From positions 1,673,836 through 1,737,835 of the forward strand of contig NZ_CP065856.1 in NCBI RefSeq assembly GCF_016065055.1: a stretch of DNA of 64,000 nt. Reading direction: 5' to 3'. A program made the translations under genes and the position numbers. How positions within the stretch are numbered: position 1 is the stretch's first letter; each line of letters opens with the position of its first letter. Positions 22,701 to 44,779 of the stretch are shown here, in pieces. The notes under the pieces were generated by a model, which worked only from the letters and a program-made list of their open reading frames with translations, did not search any database and was not told the origin of the DNA. The DNA is from Halosimplex litoreum (GTDB lineage Archaea > Halobacteriota > Halobacteria > Halobacteriales > Haloarculaceae).

Positions 22701-24959
22701 GCGCTCAACCACGAGTCGATCGAGACCCTCGTCGAGGGGTACCTCGATCCGAGCCATGCCGAGCGCGACGACTTCGGAACGCTCGTCGACGACCTCGACC
22801 ACCTCGACGGCGAACTCTCCGTCCCCTCGTTCGACAACGGCGGTTCACAGTCGATCCAGCCCGTCGAAGCGCTCAGCAAACATCTGGCACCGGATCATCT
22901 CGTCGAGATCCGTACGGAATCCGGCCGAGAGCTGACCGTGACACCGGATCACGACGTCCACATCTACGAACCGGATCTCGGTCGGATGGTCTCTGTCCCC
23001 GCGGGGAAACTCGACGAGTCCGACTGTCTCGTCACGCCGAAGGACCTCGATAGCGCCGATCCGGCCGAAGAGCCGGAGCGGTTCGACCTCCTGAAGGAGT
23101 TCGTCGAGTCCGATGTCGTCGACGACGACCGACTGATGGTCAAGGGCCTCGACAAGGAGCGGCTGTACGAACGTTTCGAACACCGACTGGCCGACGAGTG
23201 GGATGGTCGCTTCTACCCACTCCAGAGCACTGCCGACCACCTCGGCCTCACCAAGAAGACGCTGAGTAACTACCTCTACCGCGAGAGCATCCCGGTCGCG
23301 TTGTTGAGTCACTTCTTCGACTCGACGGACGACCTGCTCGAATTCGTGCCGGAGGACGCAACCCTGGGTGTCAAACACGACAGGACTGAAATCGACCGGC
23401 ACGTCACGCTCAACGAACGGGTCGCGACGCTGCTCGGCTACTACGCCGCCGAGGGATTCGCCCGGATGCAGGACACTCCGAAGGGGACGATCCATCAGAC
23501 GACGATCTGCGGCACGGACGAGGAGGCTCGACAGTTCTTCCTCGACGTGTTGACCGAGGAGTTCGGCGCCGACCCGTACGTCGAGAATCACGCGAAGGTC
23601 ACGGCCTCGGGCAGATTGCTCCGCGGATTCTTCGACACGGTGCTGGATGCGGGCGTCTTCGCTCACACCAAGCGAGTCCCGCAGTGTATCTTCGACGCAC
23701 CTGACCGGATCGCCGGCGCCTATCTCGCAGGGTATTTCAGCGGTGACGGTACCGCTGACAACCAAGCACCCCGCGTCTCCGCGACGACTGTGAGTCCGGA
23801 ACTCAAATCCGACGTGCTCGCACTGCTGACTCGACTGGGTATCACTGCGACGGTAAATCACACTGGTCCAGTTGCACTTTCGGACGCGTTCCCGGACTTC
23901 TACCAGGAGGACGACGAGTCGCTCTCGCGCCACAGCTACGAACTAACCATCTCTCGGGACGACGCCGTCCGATTCGCCGACCGCGTCGGGTTCCACCTCA
24001 CCGAGAAGGACTATCGGCTGCGCCGACAGGTCGACGGGCGGAAGCACACCGACCGCCACGCCTACGTGTTCGACGGGGGTTCGGATGAGTACCACCTCGA
24101 TCCGGTTCAGTCGGTCTCGTACATCGAGTCGGATGTCGACCACGTGTACTGTCTCACCGTCGCCGAAACCCACTCGCTCATCGCCGAAGACCTGTCGGCA
24201 AAGCAGTGTGACGGTGACGAGGACTGCGTCATGCTTCTGATGGACGGGCTGCTCAACTTCTCGAAGCAGTTCCTCCCGGACCAGCGCGGCGGGCAGATGG
24301 ACGCCCCCCTCGTCATGTCCTCGCGGATCGACCCGGCGGAGATCGACGACGAGGCGCACAACGTCGACATCATGCGGGAGTATCCGAAGGAGTTCTACGA
24401 GGCGACCCGCGAACTCGCCGACCCGGAGGACGTCGAGGAGATCATGACCATCGCGGAGGAGACGCTGGGCACCGACGAGGAGTACACCGGCTTCGACCAC
24501 ACCCACGACACCACCAACATCGCCGCCGGGCCGGATCTCTCGGCGTACAAGACGCTGGGGTCGATGGAGGACAAGATGGACGCCCAGCTGAACCTCTCGC
24601 GGAAGATCCGGGCGGTCGACGAGACGGACGTGGCCGAGCGCATCATCGAGTACCACTTCCTGCCCGACCTCATCGGGAACCTCCGCGCGTTCTCCCGGCA
24701 GGACGTGCGCTGTCTGGACTGCGGCGAGAAGTACCGGCGGATGCCGCTGTCGGGCGACTGCCGGGAGTGTGGCGGCCGCGTGAACCTCACCGTCCACGAG
24801 GGGTCGGTCAACAAGTACATCGAGACCGCCACCCGCGTCGCCGAGGAGTTCGGCTGTCGCACCTACACGAAACAGCGCCTGGAAGTCCTCGAACGGTCGA
24901 TCAACCGCGTCTTCGAGGACGACACCAACAAGCAGTCCGGCATCGCGGACTTCATGTGA
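19713..24959 (+). CDS. polC: DNA polymerase D large subunit (DP2) with intein
   Basis: A 1748-residue precursor, about 1231 residues after removal of a 517-residue intein. DP2 is the catalytic subunit of the archaeal replicative polymerase PolD and pairs with DP1. Conserved text includes YYAGPIRSAGGTAQALSVL (~residue 134) and NHGNATAGVHPATMHLVDDF (~353). A zinc-ribbon cluster follows near 732-778 (CTACGERTY, CPDCGG, CPDCDH, CSRCE). The catalytic region RRN/CDGDEDCVMLLMDGL is interrupted by the intein. A second zinc motif CLDCGEKY...CRECGG lies near 1670, and the C-terminus is NKQSGIADFM. Two acidic low-complexity inserts (~285-313 and ~530-570) are haloarchaeal. Codons just before the intein are unusually AT-rich. 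Confidence 0.96.
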   Translation: MKPEDERYFERLESGLDEAFEVAERARERGGDPTDSVEIPVARDMADRVENILGIDGVAERVRELEGEMSREEAALELVSDFVDGDVGDYDSRAGKVEGAVRTAVALLTEGVVAAPIEGIDRVEILENDDGTEFVNVYYAGPIRSAGGTAQALSVLVADYARAMLGIDQYKARDDEIGRYAEEIDLYDKETGLQYSPKEKESKFIAEHMPIMLDGEATGDEEVSGYRDLERIDSNSARGGMCLVMAEGIALKAPKIQRYTRNLDEVDWPWLQDLIDGTIGKDDGEDEADDGEDAEAEDDADDDSEGDTDEPAGPPRLEPSKKFLRDLIAGRPVFSHPSEAGGFRLRYGRARNHGNATAGVHPATMHLVDDFLATGTQIKTERPGKAAGVVPVDTIEGPTVRLANGEVRRIDDPEEALAVRNGVEKVIDLGEYLVNYGEFVENNHPLAPASYTVEWWAQEFDDAGADVQAMRDSLDVDLADPSAAEALEWADDYDAPLHPKYTYCWHDLSVDEVCALADAVDEGRIAQTDGAVVRDPEDRDDADSSQGTQHDAATDGHDRDAGAAAAGDLVIPRSPGVCEAVEHLLVEHTQTEDTLVIPDWRPLVRTLGFSDSLEREWAPEDLSERAKAYGGGEASDAQLESSAASTEDGANAIEAINEVAPFPVRERAPTRIGNRMGRPEKSEKRDLSPAVHTLFPIGEAGGAQRKVGDAAVAGDSYDDSQGKVELEVGRQECTACGERTYKPRCPDCGGVCEAVYVCPDCDHEVEPDESGRAECSRCETLARPTQTTVVDINSEFKSALANLNERPTAYDALKAVKGLSSEQKTPEPMEKGVLRAKHGVSAFKDGTVRYDMTDLPVTAVRPSELDVTADAFRALGYGEDIHGQPLQHDDQLVELNVQDVVLSEGAAEHMLKTADFVDDLLESYYGLEPFYELEERDDLVGELVFGMAPHTSAATVGRVVGFTTAAVGYAHPYFHAAKRRNCFHPETKVWYEDEEGALNHESIETLVEGYLDPSHAERDDFGTLVDDLDHLDGELSVPSFDNGGSQSIQPVEALSKHLAPDHLVEIRTESGRELTVTPDHDVHIYEPDLGRMVSVPAGKLDESDCLVTPKDLDSADPAEEPERFDLLKEFVESDVVDDDRLMVKGLDKERLYERFEHRLADEWDGRFYPLQSTADHLGLTKKTLSNYLYRESIPVALLSHFFDSTDDLLEFVPEDATLGVKHDRTEIDRHVTLNERVATLLGYYAAEGFARMQDTPKGTIHQTTICGTDEEARQFFLDVLTEEFGADPYVENHAKVTASGRLLRGFFDTVLDAGVFAHTKRVPQCIFDAPDRIAGAYLAGYFSGDGTADNQAPRVSATTVSPELKSDVLALLTRLGITATVNHTGPVALSDAFPDFYQEDDESLSRHSYELTISRDDAVRFADRVGFHLTEKDYRLRRQVDGRKHTDRHAYVFDGGSDEYHLDPVQSVSYIESDVDHVYCLTVAETHSLIAEDLSAKQCDGDEDCVMLLMDGLLNFSKQFLPDQRGGQMDAPLVMSSRIDPAEIDDEAHNVDIMREYPKEFYEATRELADPEDVEEIMTIAEETLGTDEEYTGFDHTHDTTNIAAGPDLSAYKTLGSMEDKMDAQLNLSRKIRAVDETDVAERIIEYHFLPDLIGNLRAFSRQDVRCLDCGEKYRRMPLSGDCRECGGRVNLTVHEGSVNKYIETATRVAEEFGCRTYTKQRLEVLERSINRVFEDDTNKQSGIADFM
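22656..24206 (+). other. Intein with LAGLIDADG homing endonuclease inside DP2
   Basis: A 517-residue in-frame insertion, precursor residues 982-1498, sits between KRRN and CDGDEDCVML. It begins with Cys (CFHPETKVWYEDE, block A) and carries block B (SGRELTVTPDHDVHI). Two LAGLIDADG-type helices follow (ATLLGYYAAEGFARM and GAYLAGYFSGDGTAD). It ends VYCLTVAETHSLIAEDLSAKQ before the +1 Cys. The usual C-terminal His-Asn is Lys-Gln here. A C-terminal Gln is known for the Pyrococcus abyssi PolII intein, which splices. The endonuclease looks intact, so the element may still home. Confidence 0.93.
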
Positions 24960-25021
24960 GCGCGCCGTTTCCGCCGAGCGAAGTGAGGCGGTTCTTCCGA
25001 GCACGCCGCCGGCGCGCTCGA

Positions 25022-25198
25022 TTTTTTCGTCCACGTTTTTGGCCGAGCGGGTCGCGAACTGCGAGGGGCGACCGAACGGGAGCGCCTCGAAGGTGAGCGG
25101 CGAAGCCGCGAACGGAGCGAGCGACCCCGAGGCGAAAAACGTGGGACCGACACCAACAAGCAGTCCGGCATCACCGACTTCACGTGAGAGCGCCGTTT
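25022..25198 (+). repeat. Dual-T element followed by a copy of the polC 3' end
   Basis: The left terminus 25022-25043 has T6, CGTCCACG, T5 and GGCC. The right terminus 25131-25145 (GGCGAAAAACGTGGG) is its inverted partner. Immediately after, 25148-25198 repeats the end of polC (24920-24970, last 13 codons, stop and ten downstream bases) with 47 of 51 bases matching. The rest of 24960-25429 is non-coding, and 25300-25429 is AT-rich with T-runs, a likely terminator region for both flanking genes. Confidence 0.65.
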
Positions 25199-25429
25199 TC
25201 GCGACCGCGTTTCGTCGGACGAGCGGCGCGCCGTCGGAGATCCGTCCGCCAGAACAGAGGCGAAAACGAGCCTGACGACTCCGTCGTTTCCCTCGCCCGA
25301 CGCTCAGTACAGAGGCCGTATTCAGCAGAGTAGAGATATCGTTACAAACTGGTTCTATATTTTTTCAGCTATGTGTTTTTGTGTAACGAAAATCTGCCAT
25401 ATATAAATGCTACCGTGATGGTTACTTCA

Positions 25430-26797
25430 TCAGGAGGCGGCGAAGACGGCTGCGACGTCGGCCAGTTCGCCGAGTGAGAGGTCCCCGTCCGCGTAGTCAT
25501 CGGCCGCGGTCAGGAGTTCACTCACCGTTATTTCGCCGTCCCCGTCGGCGTCGTAGTCGGCCGCCGGGCCCGACAGGGCTTCCCCAGACGATCCAGATGC
25601 GACGCTGTACCCGTACACTTTCCCGCCGAGTTCGGGGACGTAGATCCGGTCTGCTCCGACCGCGACGTGACCGCCGCCGCCGCCCGGAATACTCCAGTAA
25701 ACGTCGCCGCTTCCGGCATCGACCGCGTAGGTCGTGTCTCCGCACGCGATGACAATATCACCGACCACGAGTGGAGACGACCGGTAGCCACTCCCGATCT
25801 CGGCCATCCACTGCTGGGACCCGTCCGTCGGATCGAGCGCGTACAGCTCGTCGTTGTGAACGTAGACGGATCCGTGTGCCACCGCGACGGTGTCCCCGAA
25901 CGGGCGTGGGAAGTTTCTGGACCACAGCTTCTCGCCCTCATCGACCCCGAGGGCGAGGAGCCTGTACTCGGACTCCTCCACGCCGACGATCACCCGCCCG
26001 TCGCTCACCGTCGGTGAACCGTTCGCCAGTCCCGTCCAGTCCCCGATATCGTAGCGCCACCGCTCGGTCCCGTCCGACCGGTTGACCGCGACGATAGCGC
26101 CCCCACCCTGGGCGGCGGGCACGTACACCGTGTCGCTTGTAACCGCCGGAGCGAACTTGATCCATCCGCCCGCGTCGAACTCCCACCGCTTCTCGCCACT
26201 GTCCGCGTCGAGCGCGTACAGGTAGCTGTCCTTCGTACCGACGTAGACCGTTCCGTCGACCACGACCGGTGACGCCCCGACTTTCTCCGACCGCCCCGGT
26301 TCGTCCGCGTGCTGTGGTTCGAACTCCCACTCGATTGTCCCCGTCTCGGCGTCGAGCGCGTACAGATGCCCGGCTGTAGCCCACAGGTCCGGCCCTGCCC
26401 CGACGTAGACCATCCCGTCGGCGACCGCTGGCGAGGTCCGTACGTCCGTATACACGTGTGTGCGCCACTTCTGGGTGCCGTCGTCCGCGTCGACCGCGTA
26501 GACGTGTTCGTTCCAGCTACCAAAATAGAGCGTCCCGTCGACCAGTGCCGGCGACGACGTCACGCGGTCCTGTACGGTATCCCCAATGTCGAACTCCCAC
26601 TCTTGGGAAACCTTGTCATCCTCTTTCGGGAGGTGGTTTGCGTCGACGAACCCGGTGTGTCGCGCGTCGACCGCGTAGGTCCGCTGGTTGAATTCCCGCT
26701 CGGTCGCCTCCGCAGTTGTAATCCCGAGGACGCTGCTCCCGGCGACTGCCATAGCCCCCCGGAGCAACTCACGCCGCGTCGCGCTCGGTCCTCGCAT
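25430..26797 (-). CDS. Tat-exported PQQ-type beta-propeller protein with dockerin-like end
   Basis: A 455-residue secreted protein. The N-terminus RRELLRGAMAVAGSSVLGITTAEA is a twin-arginine signal. About seven repeats of the form GTVYVGT...LYALDADSGEKRWEF follow, one propeller blade each, as in PQQ-like or BamB-like propellers. The C-terminus has a calcium loop DYDADGDGEITVSELL and a second helix, as in dockerin/EF-hand ends. It may act as an extracellular redox or scaffold protein; no PQQ-enzyme catalytic residues were identified. A TATA-like ATTAAA (plus strand, 26822-26827) is 27 bases from the ATG, giving a leaderless start. Confidence 0.88.
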   Translation of the reverse strand: MRGPSATRRELLRGAMAVAGSSVLGITTAEATEREFNQRTYAVDARHTGFVDANHLPKEDDKVSQEWEFDIGDTVQDRVTSSPALVDGTLYFGSWNEHVYAVDADDGTQKWRTHVYTDVRTSPAVADGMVYVGAGPDLWATAGHLYALDAETGTIEWEFEPQHADEPGRSEKVGASPVVVDGTVYVGTKDSYLYALDADSGEKRWEFDAGGWIKFAPAVTSDTVYVPAAQGGGAIVAVNRSDGTERWRYDIGDWTGLANGSPTVSDGRVIVGVEESEYRLLALGVDEGEKLWSRNFPRPFGDTVAVAHGSVYVHNDELYALDPTDGSQQWMAEIGSGYRSSPLVVGDIVIACGDTTYAVDAGSGDVYWSIPGGGGGHVAVGADRIYVPELGGKVYGYSVASGSSGEALSGPAADYDADGDGEITVSELLTAADDYADGDLSLGELADVAAVFAAS

Positions 26798-26821
26798 ACT
26801 CACACCCCGCAGAGAGAGCGG

Positions 26822-26827
26822 ATTAAA
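26822..26827 (-). promoter_or_regulatory. TATA box of the PQQ-propeller gene
   Basis: TTTAAT on the minus strand, centred 27 bases before ATG 26797; the GTG six bases further upstream would fall outside the predicted transcript. Confidence 0.55.
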
Positions 26828-27048
26828 CTTTCCCAGCGCACGTATTTTTCTGGAGATTTATTAACTCTGGACGACATCATATCAGTTCAGCTGCAAATCG
26901 GTTGCTGTATTCGCGCTGTGTATGCACCACGCTCGGTGAGACATATATCGGAACCGGCAGCTTCTCTAACAACCAGTTCGCGCACCTAACTGACCGCCGT
27001 CGCTCTCACGACCGAAGCTATATCGGGACGCGTCGCCCGAACGAAGGT

Positions 27049-28281
27049 ATGACCGACGACGCGTCCGCCCCCGTGGTGGCCTCCCTCTCGGCCGACCGCT
27101 ACGACGAGTTCCGCCGGATCGTCGACTACGCGTTCCACCCCGGAGCGGGGCCCCAGGAGTACGACGACGAGCCCGAGCGGATCGCCGACCGCTACGGGGC
27201 GTTCGTCGACGACGACCTCGTCAGCGTCTGCGGCCACTACGACTTCCGGGCGAACCTGCGTGGCGAGCGGGTCCGACTCGCCGGCCTGGCGGCCGTGGCC
27301 ACGCCGCCGGAACACCGCCGGGAGGGGTACGTCGGGGCGCTGATCGACGACGCGCTGGAGCGGTGGCGCGGCGAGTACGCGCTCGCGGCGCTGTGGCCGT
27401 TCGCGCGGTCGTACTACGAGCAGTTCGGCTGGGCGACCGCCAACACCGCGACCACCTACACCTGCCCGCCCGAGCAGCTGGCGTTCGCCCGCGGGGCTGC
27501 CGCCGGCCGAGCGCGCCCGGTCGAGCCCGACGAGTGGCGCGCCCTGCAGTCGGTCCACGAGACGGCCGCCGAGCGGACGACGCTCGCGCTCGAGCGGCGC
27601 TCGGAGACGTGGTGGCGCGAGCGGATCCTCTCCGAAGGGGGCGACGACCGCCCGTGGGCCTACGTCTGGGAGCGCGACGGCGACGCGTGCGGCTATCTCG
27701 TCTACGACTTCGAGGACGCCGGCGAGGGGTTCGAACAGCGGCGGCTCGCGGTCGACGATATGGCCGCCGTCGACCACGAGACGTGGCTCGGTCTCCTCGG
27801 ATTCCTCGCCGACCACGACTCCCAGGCGACGGAGGTCCGCTTCGCCGGCGACGGTCGGGGGGATCTGCTCGACCTCGTTCCCGACCCCGACGCGGTCGAC
27901 TGCGAGGTGGAGACGGGACCGATGGTCCGCGTCGTCGACGCCGCCGACACGCTCGAAGCGTGTCCCTATCCGGCCGAGGCGAGCGCGGACCTCACGTTCG
28001 ACGTGAGCGACGCGACCGCCGACTGGAACGACGGGCGATTCCGGCTCTCCGCCGCGGACGGGACCGGCGAGTGCGAGCGGATCGACGACGCCGACGGGGA
28101 GTCGGCGGCCACCGCGGACGCGACACTCGACGTCGGGACGCTGTCGCAGCTCGTCGTCGGGTATCACGACGCCGCGACCGCCCGCCGCGTCGGCGGTCTC
28201 GTGGTCGCCGACGAGTCGGTCGCCGACGCGCTCGCGGAGCTGTTCCCAGCGGAGCGCGTGTACCTGCGGACGTTCTTCTGA
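27049..28281 (+). CDS. Eis-like GNAT acetyltransferase
   Basis: A 410-residue protein with the three-part Eis layout. The N-terminal GNAT domain contains the acetyl-CoA loop ATPPEHRREGYVGALIDDAL (~residue 85) and the LWPFARSYYEQFGW motif (~115). A second GNAT-like domain spans ~140-290, and a C-terminal SCP2-like domain has DVGTLSQLVVGYHDAATA. The protein ends in an aromatic carboxyl end (YLRTFF), typical of Eis where the terminus is near the active site. The substrate is unknown. A TATA-like CTATATC about 27 bases before the ATG supports this start. Confidence 0.88.
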   Translation: MTDDASAPVVASLSADRYDEFRRIVDYAFHPGAGPQEYDDEPERIADRYGAFVDDDLVSVCGHYDFRANLRGERVRLAGLAAVATPPEHRREGYVGALIDDALERWRGEYALAALWPFARSYYEQFGWATANTATTYTCPPEQLAFARGAAAGRARPVEPDEWRALQSVHETAAERTTLALERRSETWWRERILSEGGDDRPWAYVWERDGDACGYLVYDFEDAGEGFEQRRLAVDDMAAVDHETWLGLLGFLADHDSQATEVRFAGDGRGDLLDLVPDPDAVDCEVETGPMVRVVDAADTLEACPYPAEASADLTFDVSDATADWNDGRFRLSAADGTGECERIDDADGESAATADATLDVGTLSQLVVGYHDAATARRVGGLVVADESVADALAELFPAERVYLRTFF

Positions 28282-28308
28282 GGGGGCGACCGTCGGCGGT
28301 GGGGCCGT

Positions 28309-28656
28309 TCACGCGTGACCGAGCCAGAGTCGCCGGATGGCTCCCTCCCGGACTTCGTAGACGGCAAGCGCCTCCATCGGGTCGTCCATCCCGGCGACCC
28401 GCTCGCGGACGGCCTCGAACGGGCCGACGGTGAGGCGCTCCGCGAACGCACAGTTCAGGTCCGGGTACGCCGCGAAGAGGTCGGCGTACTGCTCGCGAAT
28501 GGCTTCGCGGCCCTCGGCGGTAGTCTCGTCGCCCGACAGCGGCGCGATGACCGCGTCCTCGGCGAAGTGCGACGCGAACGCTTCGGCGTCGCCGTCGTTG
28601 TAGGCCGCGAGCTGTCCGTCCACGACCTCGCGCGTCTCGGTGTCGGTCTCGTCCAT
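28309..28656 (-). CDS. SnoaL/NTF2-like small protein
   Basis: A 115-residue protein with an NTF2-like pattern: VVDGQLAAYNDGDAEAFASHFAEDAVI at the N-terminus, EGREAIREQYADLFAAYPDLN in the middle and beta-strand text ending RRLWLGHA. Such domains act as small enzymes or ligand-binding folds, and the ligand cannot be predicted. ATG 28656 is selected because the upstream in-frame text overlaps the purM promoter region and is not conserved-looking. It is divergent from purM. Confidence 0.75.
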   Translation of the reverse strand: MDETDTETREVVDGQLAAYNDGDAEAFASHFAEDAVIAPLSGDETTAEGREAIREQYADLFAAYPDLNCAFAERLTVGPFEAVRERVAGMDDPMEALAVYEVREGAIRRLWLGHA

Positions 28657-28759
28657 ACCGTCGGTCCGTCTCCCGGACGTGTGGAATAGCTGTTGGGTCC
28701 GGGCCGGCCGTTCCACCCGAAACGGTGGCCTTTTGCTCGCGGCCGGCGCGCTCACAGGT

Positions 28760-29770
28760 ATGACCGACGGGGACGCGGACGACGCGGACGGGACCGACGA
28801 GGAGGGACTGACCTACGCCGAGGCGGGCGTCGACATCGCCGGCCAGGAGGCCGCGACGGCGGCGCTCGTGGGCGCCACGGGCGATTTCGAGGGCGACTAC
28901 GCCGGCCTGCTCGACATCGGCGACCGCTACCTCGCGCTGGCGGCCGACGGCGTCGGGACCAAACTGCTCGTCGCCGAGGCGCTCGACGACTACTCGACCA
29001 TCGGCATCGACTGCATCGCGATGAACGCCAACGACCTGGTCGCGGCGGGCGTCGACCCCGTCGCCTTCGTCGACTACCTCGCCGTCGAGGAGCCCGACGA
29101 CGAGACGGCCGCCGCTATCGGCGCGGGGCTGGACGAAGGCGCCGAACAGGCGGGTGTCGCGCTCGTCGGCGGCGAGACCGCCGTGATGCCCGACGTGATC
29201 AAGGGCCTCGACATCGCCGGCACCTGCGCCGGTCTCGCGCCCAAAGACGCCATCTTCCCCGGCGAGGCCGAGGCCGGCGACGTGGTCGTCGGCTGGTCCT
29301 CCTCGGGCATCCACTCCAACGGACTGACGCTGGCTCGTGAGGCCGCGACCCGGAACCACGAGTACACCGACCCGTTCCCGCCGAACCCCGACAGGTCGAT
29401 CGGCGAGGAACTGCTCGAACCGACGCGCATCTACAGCGACCTCCTGGGCCCGCTGCGCGAGATCGACACCCACGCCGCCGCCCACGTCACCGGCGGCGGC
29501 TGGACGAACCTCACCCGGATGGGCGCCTTGCGCTACGAGATCGACGACCCGTTCGACGCCCAGCCGGTTTTCGAGTTCGTCCAGCAGGAGGGCGACGTGA
29601 CCGACGAGGAGATGCACCGCACGTTCAACATGGGTACCGGGTTCGTCGCCGCGATGTCCGAAGACGACGCCGAGAAAGTCGTCGACGCGACCGACGACGG
29701 CCGGGTTATCGGTCGCGTCGAGGACGGCGACGCCGCGGTCACGGTTCGCGGACTCGAACTGACCGAGTAA
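28760..29770 (+). CDS. purM: Phosphoribosylformylglycinamidine cyclo-ligase (AIR synthetase)
   Basis: A 336-residue PurM making aminoimidazole ribotide from FGAM with ATP. Conserved text includes LTYAEAGVDIAGQE (~17), ALAADGVGTKLLVAEAL (~63), DCIAMNANDLVAAGVDP (~86), LVGGETAVMPDV (~135) and HVTGGGWTNLTRM (~242). The N-terminal ~14 residues are an acidic haloarchaeal extension. A partial copy of its 3' region lies 250 bases downstream, after a dual-T element. Confidence 0.96.
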   Translation: MTDGDADDADGTDEEGLTYAEAGVDIAGQEAATAALVGATGDFEGDYAGLLDIGDRYLALAADGVGTKLLVAEALDDYSTIGIDCIAMNANDLVAAGVDPVAFVDYLAVEEPDDETAAAIGAGLDEGAEQAGVALVGGETAVMPDVIKGLDIAGTCAGLAPKDAIFPGEAEAGDVVVGWSSSGIHSNGLTLAREAATRNHEYTDPFPPNPDRSIGEELLEPTRIYSDLLGPLREIDTHAAAHVTGGGWTNLTRMGALRYEIDDPFDAQPVFEFVQQEGDVTDEEMHRTFNMGTGFVAAMSEDDAEKVVDATDDGRVIGRVEDGDAAVTVRGLELTE

Positions 29771-29796
29771 TCGCGAGCGAACGCAGTGAGCGAGCG

Positions 29797-29928
29797 CTTT
29801 TTTGGTCCAGATTTTTTCGCCGATGGTGCCCACAGTGGCGCGAAGCGCCACGAGGACACCGGAGGCGAGAAAAGGTGGTTGCCGGCACCGGGTTCGTCGC
29901 CGCGATGTCCGAAACGGACGCCGAGTGA
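29797..29928 (+). repeat. Dual-T element followed by a partial copy of purM
   Basis: T6, GGTCCAGA, T6, CGCC at 29799-29821 pairs with 29857-29878 (CACCGGAGGCGAGAAAAGGTGG). An inner hairpin spans 29835-29851 (GTGGCGC/GCGCCAC). Right after it, 29884-29925 repeats purM 29633-29674 with 38 of 42 bases matching and then meets an in-frame TGA. The repeated segment would read GTGFVAAMSETDAE. It has no start codon of its own and is taken as a sequence relic, not a gene. Confidence 0.65.
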
Positions 29929-29930
29929 GC

Positions 29931-30920
29931 CTACGCCTCCGGCGCTCGCTCGCCGGCCCCGCGGACGACCGCGTCCTCGTCGAGGCCCAGCCAGTCGACG
30001 CTCGTCCGCCAGAGGTCGCGCTGGGCGTCGCGGTCGTAGGACGCCTCGGCCGGGCGAACGACCTCGCGGTCGTCGAAGTACTCGCCGGTGACGGTCGCTA
30101 CCTCGTGCGACCTCGCCAGGTAGGTCTGCGTTTCGGCGGACTCGGCGGCGGTGTCGACCGTCCCGGTCAGCCGCCCGACCAGGCCGAAGGCCTTCCAGCC
30201 GAGGCCGGCGAGCAGCGACCCGTTGCGCGAGAGCCCGGTCGACGGCGACACGCCCGGATGGCAGCAGTTCGCCGTCACCGACTCGGGGAGCCGTCGGGCG
30301 AGTTCGAACGTGAACAGGACGTTCGCGAGCTTCGAGTGGCCGTACGCCCCCACGCCGCTGGGCCCGTCGGGACCGCGCACGCCGTCGAGATCGAGTTCGG
30401 CTCGCCGGTGGAGGTCCGAGGAGACCGTCACGACGCGGGCGGGATCGGCCCCTGCATCGGTGTTCTCTCCATCCGCCTCCTCGGCGCGGCGCTCGCCCGT
30501 CACGGCGAGGCGGTCGGCGAGTCGGTTCGTCAGGAGGAACGTCGCGAGGTGGTTGACCGCGAAGGTCAGGTCGACGCCGTCGTCGATGCCCGGCACGGCG
30601 ACCAGCGTCCGGTCGCCCTGCCAGGTGCCGGCGTTGTTCACCAGGCAGTCCAGCCGGTCGAAGTCGGCGAGGACGGCGTCGGCGAGTCCGCGCACCTCGT
30701 CGAAGTCGGTGTAGTCGGCGGCGTAGAAGGCGTGGTCGTCCCCGGGGAGTTCGGCGACCAGCGCCTCGCCCGCCGGGCGGTCGCGACCGTGAACGACGAC
30801 CGTCGCGCCGGTTGCGGCGAGGTTGCGCGCCGTCTCCGCGCCGATCCCGCTGGTCGACCCCGTCACGAGCGCGACGTGTCCCTCGTCGAGTACCGAGTCG
30901 CCGTCGGCTGCGCCTGTCAT
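29931..30920 (-). CDS. Short-chain dehydrogenase, retinol-dehydrogenase-like
   Basis: A 329-residue SDR of the extended classical type. The cofactor motif is TGSTSGIGAETARNLA (~residue 19), with NNAG (~95) and TVSSDLHRRA carrying the catalytic Ser. YGHSK gives the Tyr/Lys pair (~195). The protein is longer than most SDRs, with an acidic insert before the catalytic Ser and a long C-terminal domain resembling WW-oxidoreductase/retinol-dehydrogenase types. The substrate is unknown. It is followed upstream on the same strand by another SDR, suggesting a two-gene unit. Confidence 0.85.
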   Translation of the reverse strand: MTGAADGDSVLDEGHVALVTGSTSGIGAETARNLAATGATVVVHGRDRPAGEALVAELPGDDHAFYAADYTDFDEVRGLADAVLADFDRLDCLVNNAGTWQGDRTLVAVPGIDDGVDLTFAVNHLATFLLTNRLADRLAVTGERRAEEADGENTDAGADPARVVTVSSDLHRRAELDLDGVRGPDGPSGVGAYGHSKLANVLFTFELARRLPESVTANCCHPGVSPSTGLSRNGSLLAGLGWKAFGLVGRLTGTVDTAAESAETQTYLARSHEVATVTGEYFDDREVVRPAEASYDRDAQRDLWRTSVDWLGLDEDAVVRGAGERAPEA

Positions 30921-44098: not shown

Positions 44099-44213
44099 AT
44101 TCGCGCGCCGAAGGCGCGCGATTCACCGGGCGCGAACGGAGTGAGCGTCCGGCTTTTTTCCCCAAGTTTTTCGCTCGGGGGTGCTCGCGAGCACCCCCGA
44201 GCGAAAAAGTGGG
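44099..44213 (-). repeat. Dual-T palindromic element at the thermosome fragment
   Basis: A near-perfect palindrome at 44161-44213 (CCCAAGTTTTTCGCTCGGGG and complement) directly abuts the stop of the thermosome fragment. A second T6 tract lies at 44153-44158, with a GC-rich hairpin and TTCACCGGGCG at 44108-44140. That left part is shared with 8168-8223 and, in the opposite orientation, with 12349-12400. It would form a strong hairpin in a transcript of either strand. Confidence 0.65.
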
Positions 44214-44215
44214 TT

Positions 44216-44779
44216 CTACATCATGCCGCCCATGCCGCCGCCCATACCGCCCATGCCGCCGCCCATGCCGCCGGGCGCGCCGCCGGGGCCGCCGGGCGCG
44301 CCGCCGTCGTCGTCGTCGCCGCCGGTGGCGCCGCCCTTCAGGTCACCGGCCGCGATGACGTCGTCGATGCGGAGGATCATGACCGCGGCCTCGGTCGCGG
44401 ACTCGACCGCCTGGGTCTTGACGCGGAGCGGCTCGACGACGCCGTCCTCGACCATGTCGACGGTGTCGCCGGTGTAGGCGTCGAGGCCGACGTTGTGGTT
44501 GCCCTTGTCGTGCTGGCTACGCAGGTCGACCAGCGAGTCGATCGGGTCGAGGCCTGCGTTCTCGGCGAGCGTTCGCGGGACGACGTCGATGGCGTCCGCG
44601 AAGGCTTCGACGGCCAGTTGCTCGCGGCCGCCGACGGAGTCGGCGAAGTCACGGAGTTCGAGGGCGAGGTGGGCCTCGGGGGCGCCGCCGCCCGGGAGGA
44701 CCTGCCCGTCTTCGAGCGTGACCGAGACGACGCCGAGCGAGTCCTCGATGGCGCGCTCAACCTCGTCGGCGACGTGTTC
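44216..44779 (-). pseudogene. Thermosome 3'-end fragment (truncated paralogue)
   Basis: 187 codons matching the C-terminal third of the complete thermosome at 49548-51242, from [18 protein letters not shown] to GGMGGMM and the stop. Protein identity is very high (for example [16 protein letters not shown] against [16 protein letters not shown]), but many third positions differ. There is no apical or equatorial N-terminal part, and the in-frame extension upstream of 44779 is unrelated. It cannot form a chaperonin subunit. It is best read as the remains of a second thermosome gene or of a duplication of the intact one. Confidence 0.9.

Follow-up and report, generated by a model that had tools for sequence, protein, structure and literature searches.

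Hairpin elements behind haloarchaeal genes and the gene-tail echoes that follow them: evidence pointing to the replacement of gene ends by small cassettes

Why should part of purM recur a short distance beyond the end of the gene, behind an inverted-repeat element with T tracts? The locus lies in a 64,000-nucleotide stretch of Halosimplex litoreum DNA (contig NZ_CP065856.1, positions 1,673,836 to 1,737,835; hereafter the window, numbered from its first base). A preliminary description of the window read the repeat as a degenerate copy of the gene's own sequence, and one of several, made by a repeatable process. The features of the locus are as follows, with the tail in use called A, the element E, the echo A′ and the join point X.

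28760..29770, + strand: purM (phosphoribosylformylglycinamidine cyclo-ligase; TIGR00878, 309 bits, cut-off 236), its tail apparently replaced
29630..29632, + strand: purM bases ATG preceding X, which recur 3′ of E as TTG
29633..29797, + strand: A, the purM tail currently used, with a seemingly new 3′UTR and a terminator stem that extends to the T tract
29768..29770, + strand: purM stop codon, inside A
29798..29878, + strand: E (81 bp), conserved element, T6-GGTCCAGA-T6-hairpin-AAAAGGTGG
29879..29883, + strand: scar TTG+CC joining E to the purM echo
29884..29928, + strand: A′, the purM echo, putative remnant of an older tail, terminated by TGA

The repeat is exactly as first described: purM bases 29633-29674 recur at 29884-29925 with 38 of 42 matches, and a T-tract hairpin element (E, 29798-29878) does stand between gene and echo. 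At the junction the echo side reads TTG-CC-GGCACC and the gene side ATG-GGTACC. The TGA of the echo (29926-29928) lies 3 bases before the stop of a convergent SDR gene. With a tandem array and a repeat common to two dehydrogenase genes excluded, two short-distance repeats stand out in the 64 kb, those of purM and DP2 (24920-24974 vs. 25148-25202). The DP2 (polC) repeat, in which 24921 recurs at 25149 behind E, bears out the claim of a second gene-element-echo case:

24921..25021, + strand: DP2 (polC) tail A, 3′UTR and terminator stem; stop codon at 24957-24959
25022..25144, + strand: DP2 E element, T6-CGTCCACG-T5 ... GAAAAACGTGG
25145..25148, + strand: DP2 scar GAC+C
25149..25202, + strand: DP2 A′, the tail echo, with its own stop codon and the start of its own 3′UTR

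A third and larger case, claimed at the thermosome, did not survive scrutiny: the E variant there (44154-44212) has no echo. The repeats at 44222 and 49554 were rejected as echoes; they belong to two separate thermosome-like genes (paralogues), which both end in CATGCC repeats. The variant element itself (TTTTTTCCCCAAGTTTTT...AAAAAGTGGG) is an almost perfect palindrome adjoining the end of a thermosome-like gene.

The purM tail is affected in the window and also at loci L016, L018, L022, L095 and L283. A separate observation concerns Halosimplex carlsbadense (L006:11008-11990), where about 870 bp without E lie between purM and an old purM tail of 99 bp (86%). The flank of this old tail corresponds to the undisturbed H. 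pelagicum locus (L005). Here the tail has been displaced without the element, at roughly the same join point.

The element follows a consensus of T5, an 8-nt box, T5, a hairpin and AAAAAGGTGG. The box occurs as CGCCCACG, GGTCCAGA, GCCCCATC and other versions. The 3′ end of E is GTGG, the base of the hairpin, within which the ends CCA..TGG pair with each other. The GAGYGGT/ACCCGA motif is conserved in hairpins of the simple class, where 10-12 of 22 sequences have inner pairs that changed on both sides with pairing intact. The motif is invariant across the alignment and gives the stem an unpaired pyrimidine as well as tandem G-A mismatches, a hint that the folded strand is recognized by a protein, or that E has a role as RNA. 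Pairing of the 8-nt box with the scar was looked for by eye, and no pattern emerged.

A search pattern derived from six copies finds about 10 E per Halosimplex genome; the reversed pattern, run as a control in the same genome searches, gave zero matches. Elements of the E type occur in 79 of the family's 96 good genomes and in 140 of 242 genomes sampled over the whole class. Rfam returned two sub-threshold matches in window positions 24880-30000, neither a likely relative of E. As the IMG/VR viral sequences contain 0 matches to the pattern, a viral carrier was rejected. Some copies are arranged in higher orders. One genome (G065:C1:56503-56935 and 3341567-3341999) has triple element arrays with a constant spacing of 186 bp, and in two others (G091 and G092, loci L298-L309) inverted E pairs bracket a locus of about 1-1.5 kb that is present in multiple copies. 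Its products are a small zinc-finger protein of the CPxCG type and another small one, SWIM-like by eye; the locus looks mobile as a whole.

Whether echoes belong to the element was determined with 234 elements, found by the searches and in fetched stretches (thus not a random sample). The 400 bp 3′ of each element were aligned against the 700 bp 5′ of its T tract, an echo being counted at an alignment score of at least 20, and shuffled pairs served as the control. An echo of the immediately upstream gene stands behind 100 elements (43%), against 2% in shuffled pairs; the other 57% have none. In 99 of the 100 the echo starts 0-11 nt after GTGG. In an unbiased comparison over 81 purM-neighborhood loci, echoes stand at 6 of the 21 ORF ends that have an element, against 8 of 4529 without (Fisher p = 1.3e-11), and several of these eight are the same element loci on the opposite strand. 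The enrichment over shuffled gene pairs that the preliminary description had called for is thus present, its proposal of a repeatable, element-linked process stands, and echoes are not equally common without the element. We count coincidence, or ordinary repeats of GC-rich DNA, as already refuted by these two comparisons and leave it a negligible chance, its only support being the shortness of the purM match.

By sequence, the 99 events group into 51 clusters with many different genes, mostly housekeeping as judged from the tail sequences, from which purM, DP2, PheT, NusG/Spt5, gyrA, citrate synthase and others were named. The duplicated segments differ in length, with starts that lie 52-267 nt upstream of the T tract apart from one outlier at 452. 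Echoes end within 6 nt of the stop codon in 40% of cases, against 17% expected. Identical or neighboring join sites are used in different genera.

The join itself is precise on the side of E. GTGG is followed by three gene bases, usually by one or two extra bases, and then by gene sequence. Most of the 99 events have this scar, which is 1-2 nt long, sits behind the third base and is mostly C or T (32 C, 9 T, 8 CC, few others). At 28 of 29 independent sites the first base after the join (position 0) is a purine, compared with 53-60% in shifted controls, whose maximum in 2000 draws was 86%; position +3 is A at 55% of the 29, compared with 20-23%. The preferred landing site is NNN|RRnAC. Junctions inspected by eye had no apparent microhomology to GTGG at the landing site and no obvious codon-phase preference. 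A short target-site duplication of constant length was not found, the repeat at the join being only 3 nt. These features bear on the two processes first proposed for the repeats. Simple template switching by microhomology is unsupported, given the absence of shared bases at the GTGG join (by eye) and the landing-site consensus; tail-targeted integration comes close to the picture provided by the empty sites.

Empty orthologous sites were located using the joined flanks of filled ones. The site in a glutaredoxin gene is filled in genomes G007, G002 and G005 and contiguous in G006, G003, G000, G004 and G001 (Halosimplex), and that in PheT is filled in G000, G006 and G004 and contiguous in G007, G003 and G005. 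In the glutaredoxin gene of G007, A′ and the flank that follows it (GGCAGTTAGAATCTC) are the same as the empty site of G006, but the 3′UTR of the tail currently used is a different one and leads into E. It follows that the block of A, 3′UTR, terminator and E was added here and that the echo is native. A Rieske-like gene tells the same. In G000, A′ stands nearer to relatives, at 0.885-0.891, than does A, the tail in use, at 0.825-0.842, the excess divergence of A starting at X. By codon position, A and A′ differ at 4/5/22 sites in G000 and 2/1/16 in G007, the pattern expected of two genes that both function; at purM, third-position differences outnumber those at first and second positions together by 16:7 (L016) and 23:7 (L018). 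The third-position excess in several A-A′ pairs argues that the tail in use came from a diverged homologue. For the divergent pairs we rejected, on account of this bias, the reading of the echo as a decayed pseudo-copy. The Rieske 3′UTR and E are common to G000, G004 and G007, of which G004 uses another X, so the join site was chosen anew.

It should be noted that the foreign segment can be delimited on its left side to about 30 nt at best, within a conserved stretch. Also, most A-A′ pairs, 57 of the 99 having 0-2 differences, are so alike that they do not prove a foreign origin. The low-divergence pairs have no third-position bias and are compatible with self-duplication, and the older pairs L183, L208, L181 and L220 have decayed without such bias. 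Judged from the sequences compared, then, the echo would usually be the displaced original tail with its native flank, and the tail in use the newcomer. What had been called a degenerate copy of the gene is, from the empty sites and the Rieske comparison, usually the displaced native tail.

The reading that we hold to be probable is that a tail cassette specific to the gene, with E as its 3′ end, enters by homology on the left and by a site-selective join of the E end on the right, displacing the resident tail. The cassette (gene tail A, stop codon, 3′UTR, terminator and E) would come from incoming DNA or a sister chromosome copy and recombine with the resident gene. On the left, ordinary gene homology would be used; on the right, an enzyme would cut and join, linking the base of the E hairpin (GTGG), with a scar of 1-2 nt, to NNN|RRnAC in the 3′ part of the resident gene. 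The reading frame would be kept, and the gene would now be terminated by the tail and terminator of the cassette. The resident tail, moved downstream, would become the echo, which may then decay or be homogenized by gene conversion. Horizontal transfer may be the main supply route.

Of the alternatives, duplication of the gene's own end carries the most weight, and we regard it as unlikely to be the general explanation. Replication or repair would stall at the E hairpin and resume farther upstream in that gene, so that [A-E][A-E] arises, with the second E lost later and the second tail decaying. Such slippage predicts a second copy of identical extent, including the downstream element. In 12 events, though not in most, a second, identical E does follow the echo, and nearly all of these 12 echoes extend to the T tract; triple arrays exist as well. 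In 10 others the second E behind A′ is different. The second-E events would fit a cassette entering an already occupied locus, or a sister copy. At the loci with empty sites, moreover, the second tail has its native 3′UTR and flank and not a copy of the UTR of A. Nor does slippage account for divergent pairs that differ chiefly at third positions, or for a join without apparent microhomology at a landing site with a consensus. The many identical A-A′ pairs, together with the unbiased low-divergence ones, are in its favor. The identity, however, is explicable by gene conversion: PheT in G000 and G006 (L155 and L157) has one shared insertion in which A resembles A′ within each genome and differs between the genomes: tail and echo have evolved in concert. 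Polyploid haloarchaea are known to carry out intermolecular gene conversion (PMC8223754, PMC11276520). Random tandem duplication was rejected for most events on the strength of the empty sites and the different second elements, and self-tandem duplication accounts for a minority.

More doubtful is site-specific integration, in which a tyrosine recombinase acting in trans would insert each cassette, as a tiny integrative element in the form of an A-E circle, at an attB within the gene's 3′ end and so restore the gene. The precise E end, the preferred join sites, their use in different genera and the L006 insert of about 870 bp, which lacks E and has moved the purM tail away from roughly the same place, all agree with it. 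So does the comparison of empty and filled sites, where the incoming copy restores the gene and the original end is left at the far side. In these respects, E cassettes resemble the integrative elements and islands that insert into gene 3′ ends. The latter differ in that E units are only about 100-260 bp, without an integrase gene and too short to encode one, and that one common hairpin is combined with gene-specific tails and a 1-2 nt scar. A single hairpin family serving dozens of unrelated genes implies no common attB; instead of one attB per family there are 99 events in 51 clusters. The other X used in G004 with the same UTR and E also counts against this alternative.

RNA-guided homing is very improbable. 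An OMEGA-like RNA would have E as its scaffold and A′ as its guide, and its nuclease would cut empty alleles for repair from filled ones. Gene-matching sequence does lie directly 3′ of the hairpin, and TnpB genes were present in 4 of the 4 genomes tested. However, conserved bases fall inside the would-be guide, A would be an intact target in filled alleles, and TnpB 3′ flanks are unlike E: at 24 TnpB loci of four genomes, no E-like structure was found nearby. For want of this resemblance, E as the end of a TnpB (IS605-type) transposon was also rejected.

Returning to the cassette reading, it is possible, and we offer it tentatively, that a trans-acting haloarchaeal system recognizes folded E and links the 3′ base of the hairpin to favored sites in homologous genes, so that E-capped tails move between chromosomes and species, and that this system is dedicated to the exchange of gene tails and unrelated to known integrases, transposons and integrons. 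No recombinase or nuclease was linked to E in this analysis.

Partial likenesses to known systems are several. In integrons, a hairpin site (attC) behind the 3′ end of the cassette gene is the recombining end, and IntI acts at the attI platform. The analogy with E would be the hairpin right behind the gene end; integrons, however, insert at a platform, E cassettes at native gene loci, into homologous genes, and neither an attI nor an integron integrase was seen with E. Homology-facilitated illegitimate recombination has homology on one side and a non-homologous join on the other. Its sidedness is alike, but the E join differs in having a fixed element end, a site preference and a scar. REP/BIME are, like E, abundant intergenic hairpins behind genes; we know of no description of gene-tail duplication for REPs. 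The PATEs and SMRs of Haloquadratum, short non-coding palindromic elements mostly without target duplication, have been described as IS605-derived or self-contained repeats (PMC3119063). They are like E in size and haloarchaeal host, but a gene tail travels along only with E. The open-access literature searched (subscription papers being outside its scope) held no description of E-linked tail swapping, and hairpin-marked swapping of gene tails is apparently undescribed so far.

If this reading is true, the 3′ ends and terminators of essential genes are traded as small cassettes across an archaeal family. This would provide a route for sub-gene horizontal transfer, for the movement of terminators and for mosaic C-termini in conserved proteins, and would leave directional marks of gene-end replacement. 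As the junctions bear a defined scar, they would also offer a ready assay for the joining machinery. The salt-loving archaea would thus have a way of rewriting gene ends, by which a housekeeping gene gains a new tail and the old one remains as an echo.
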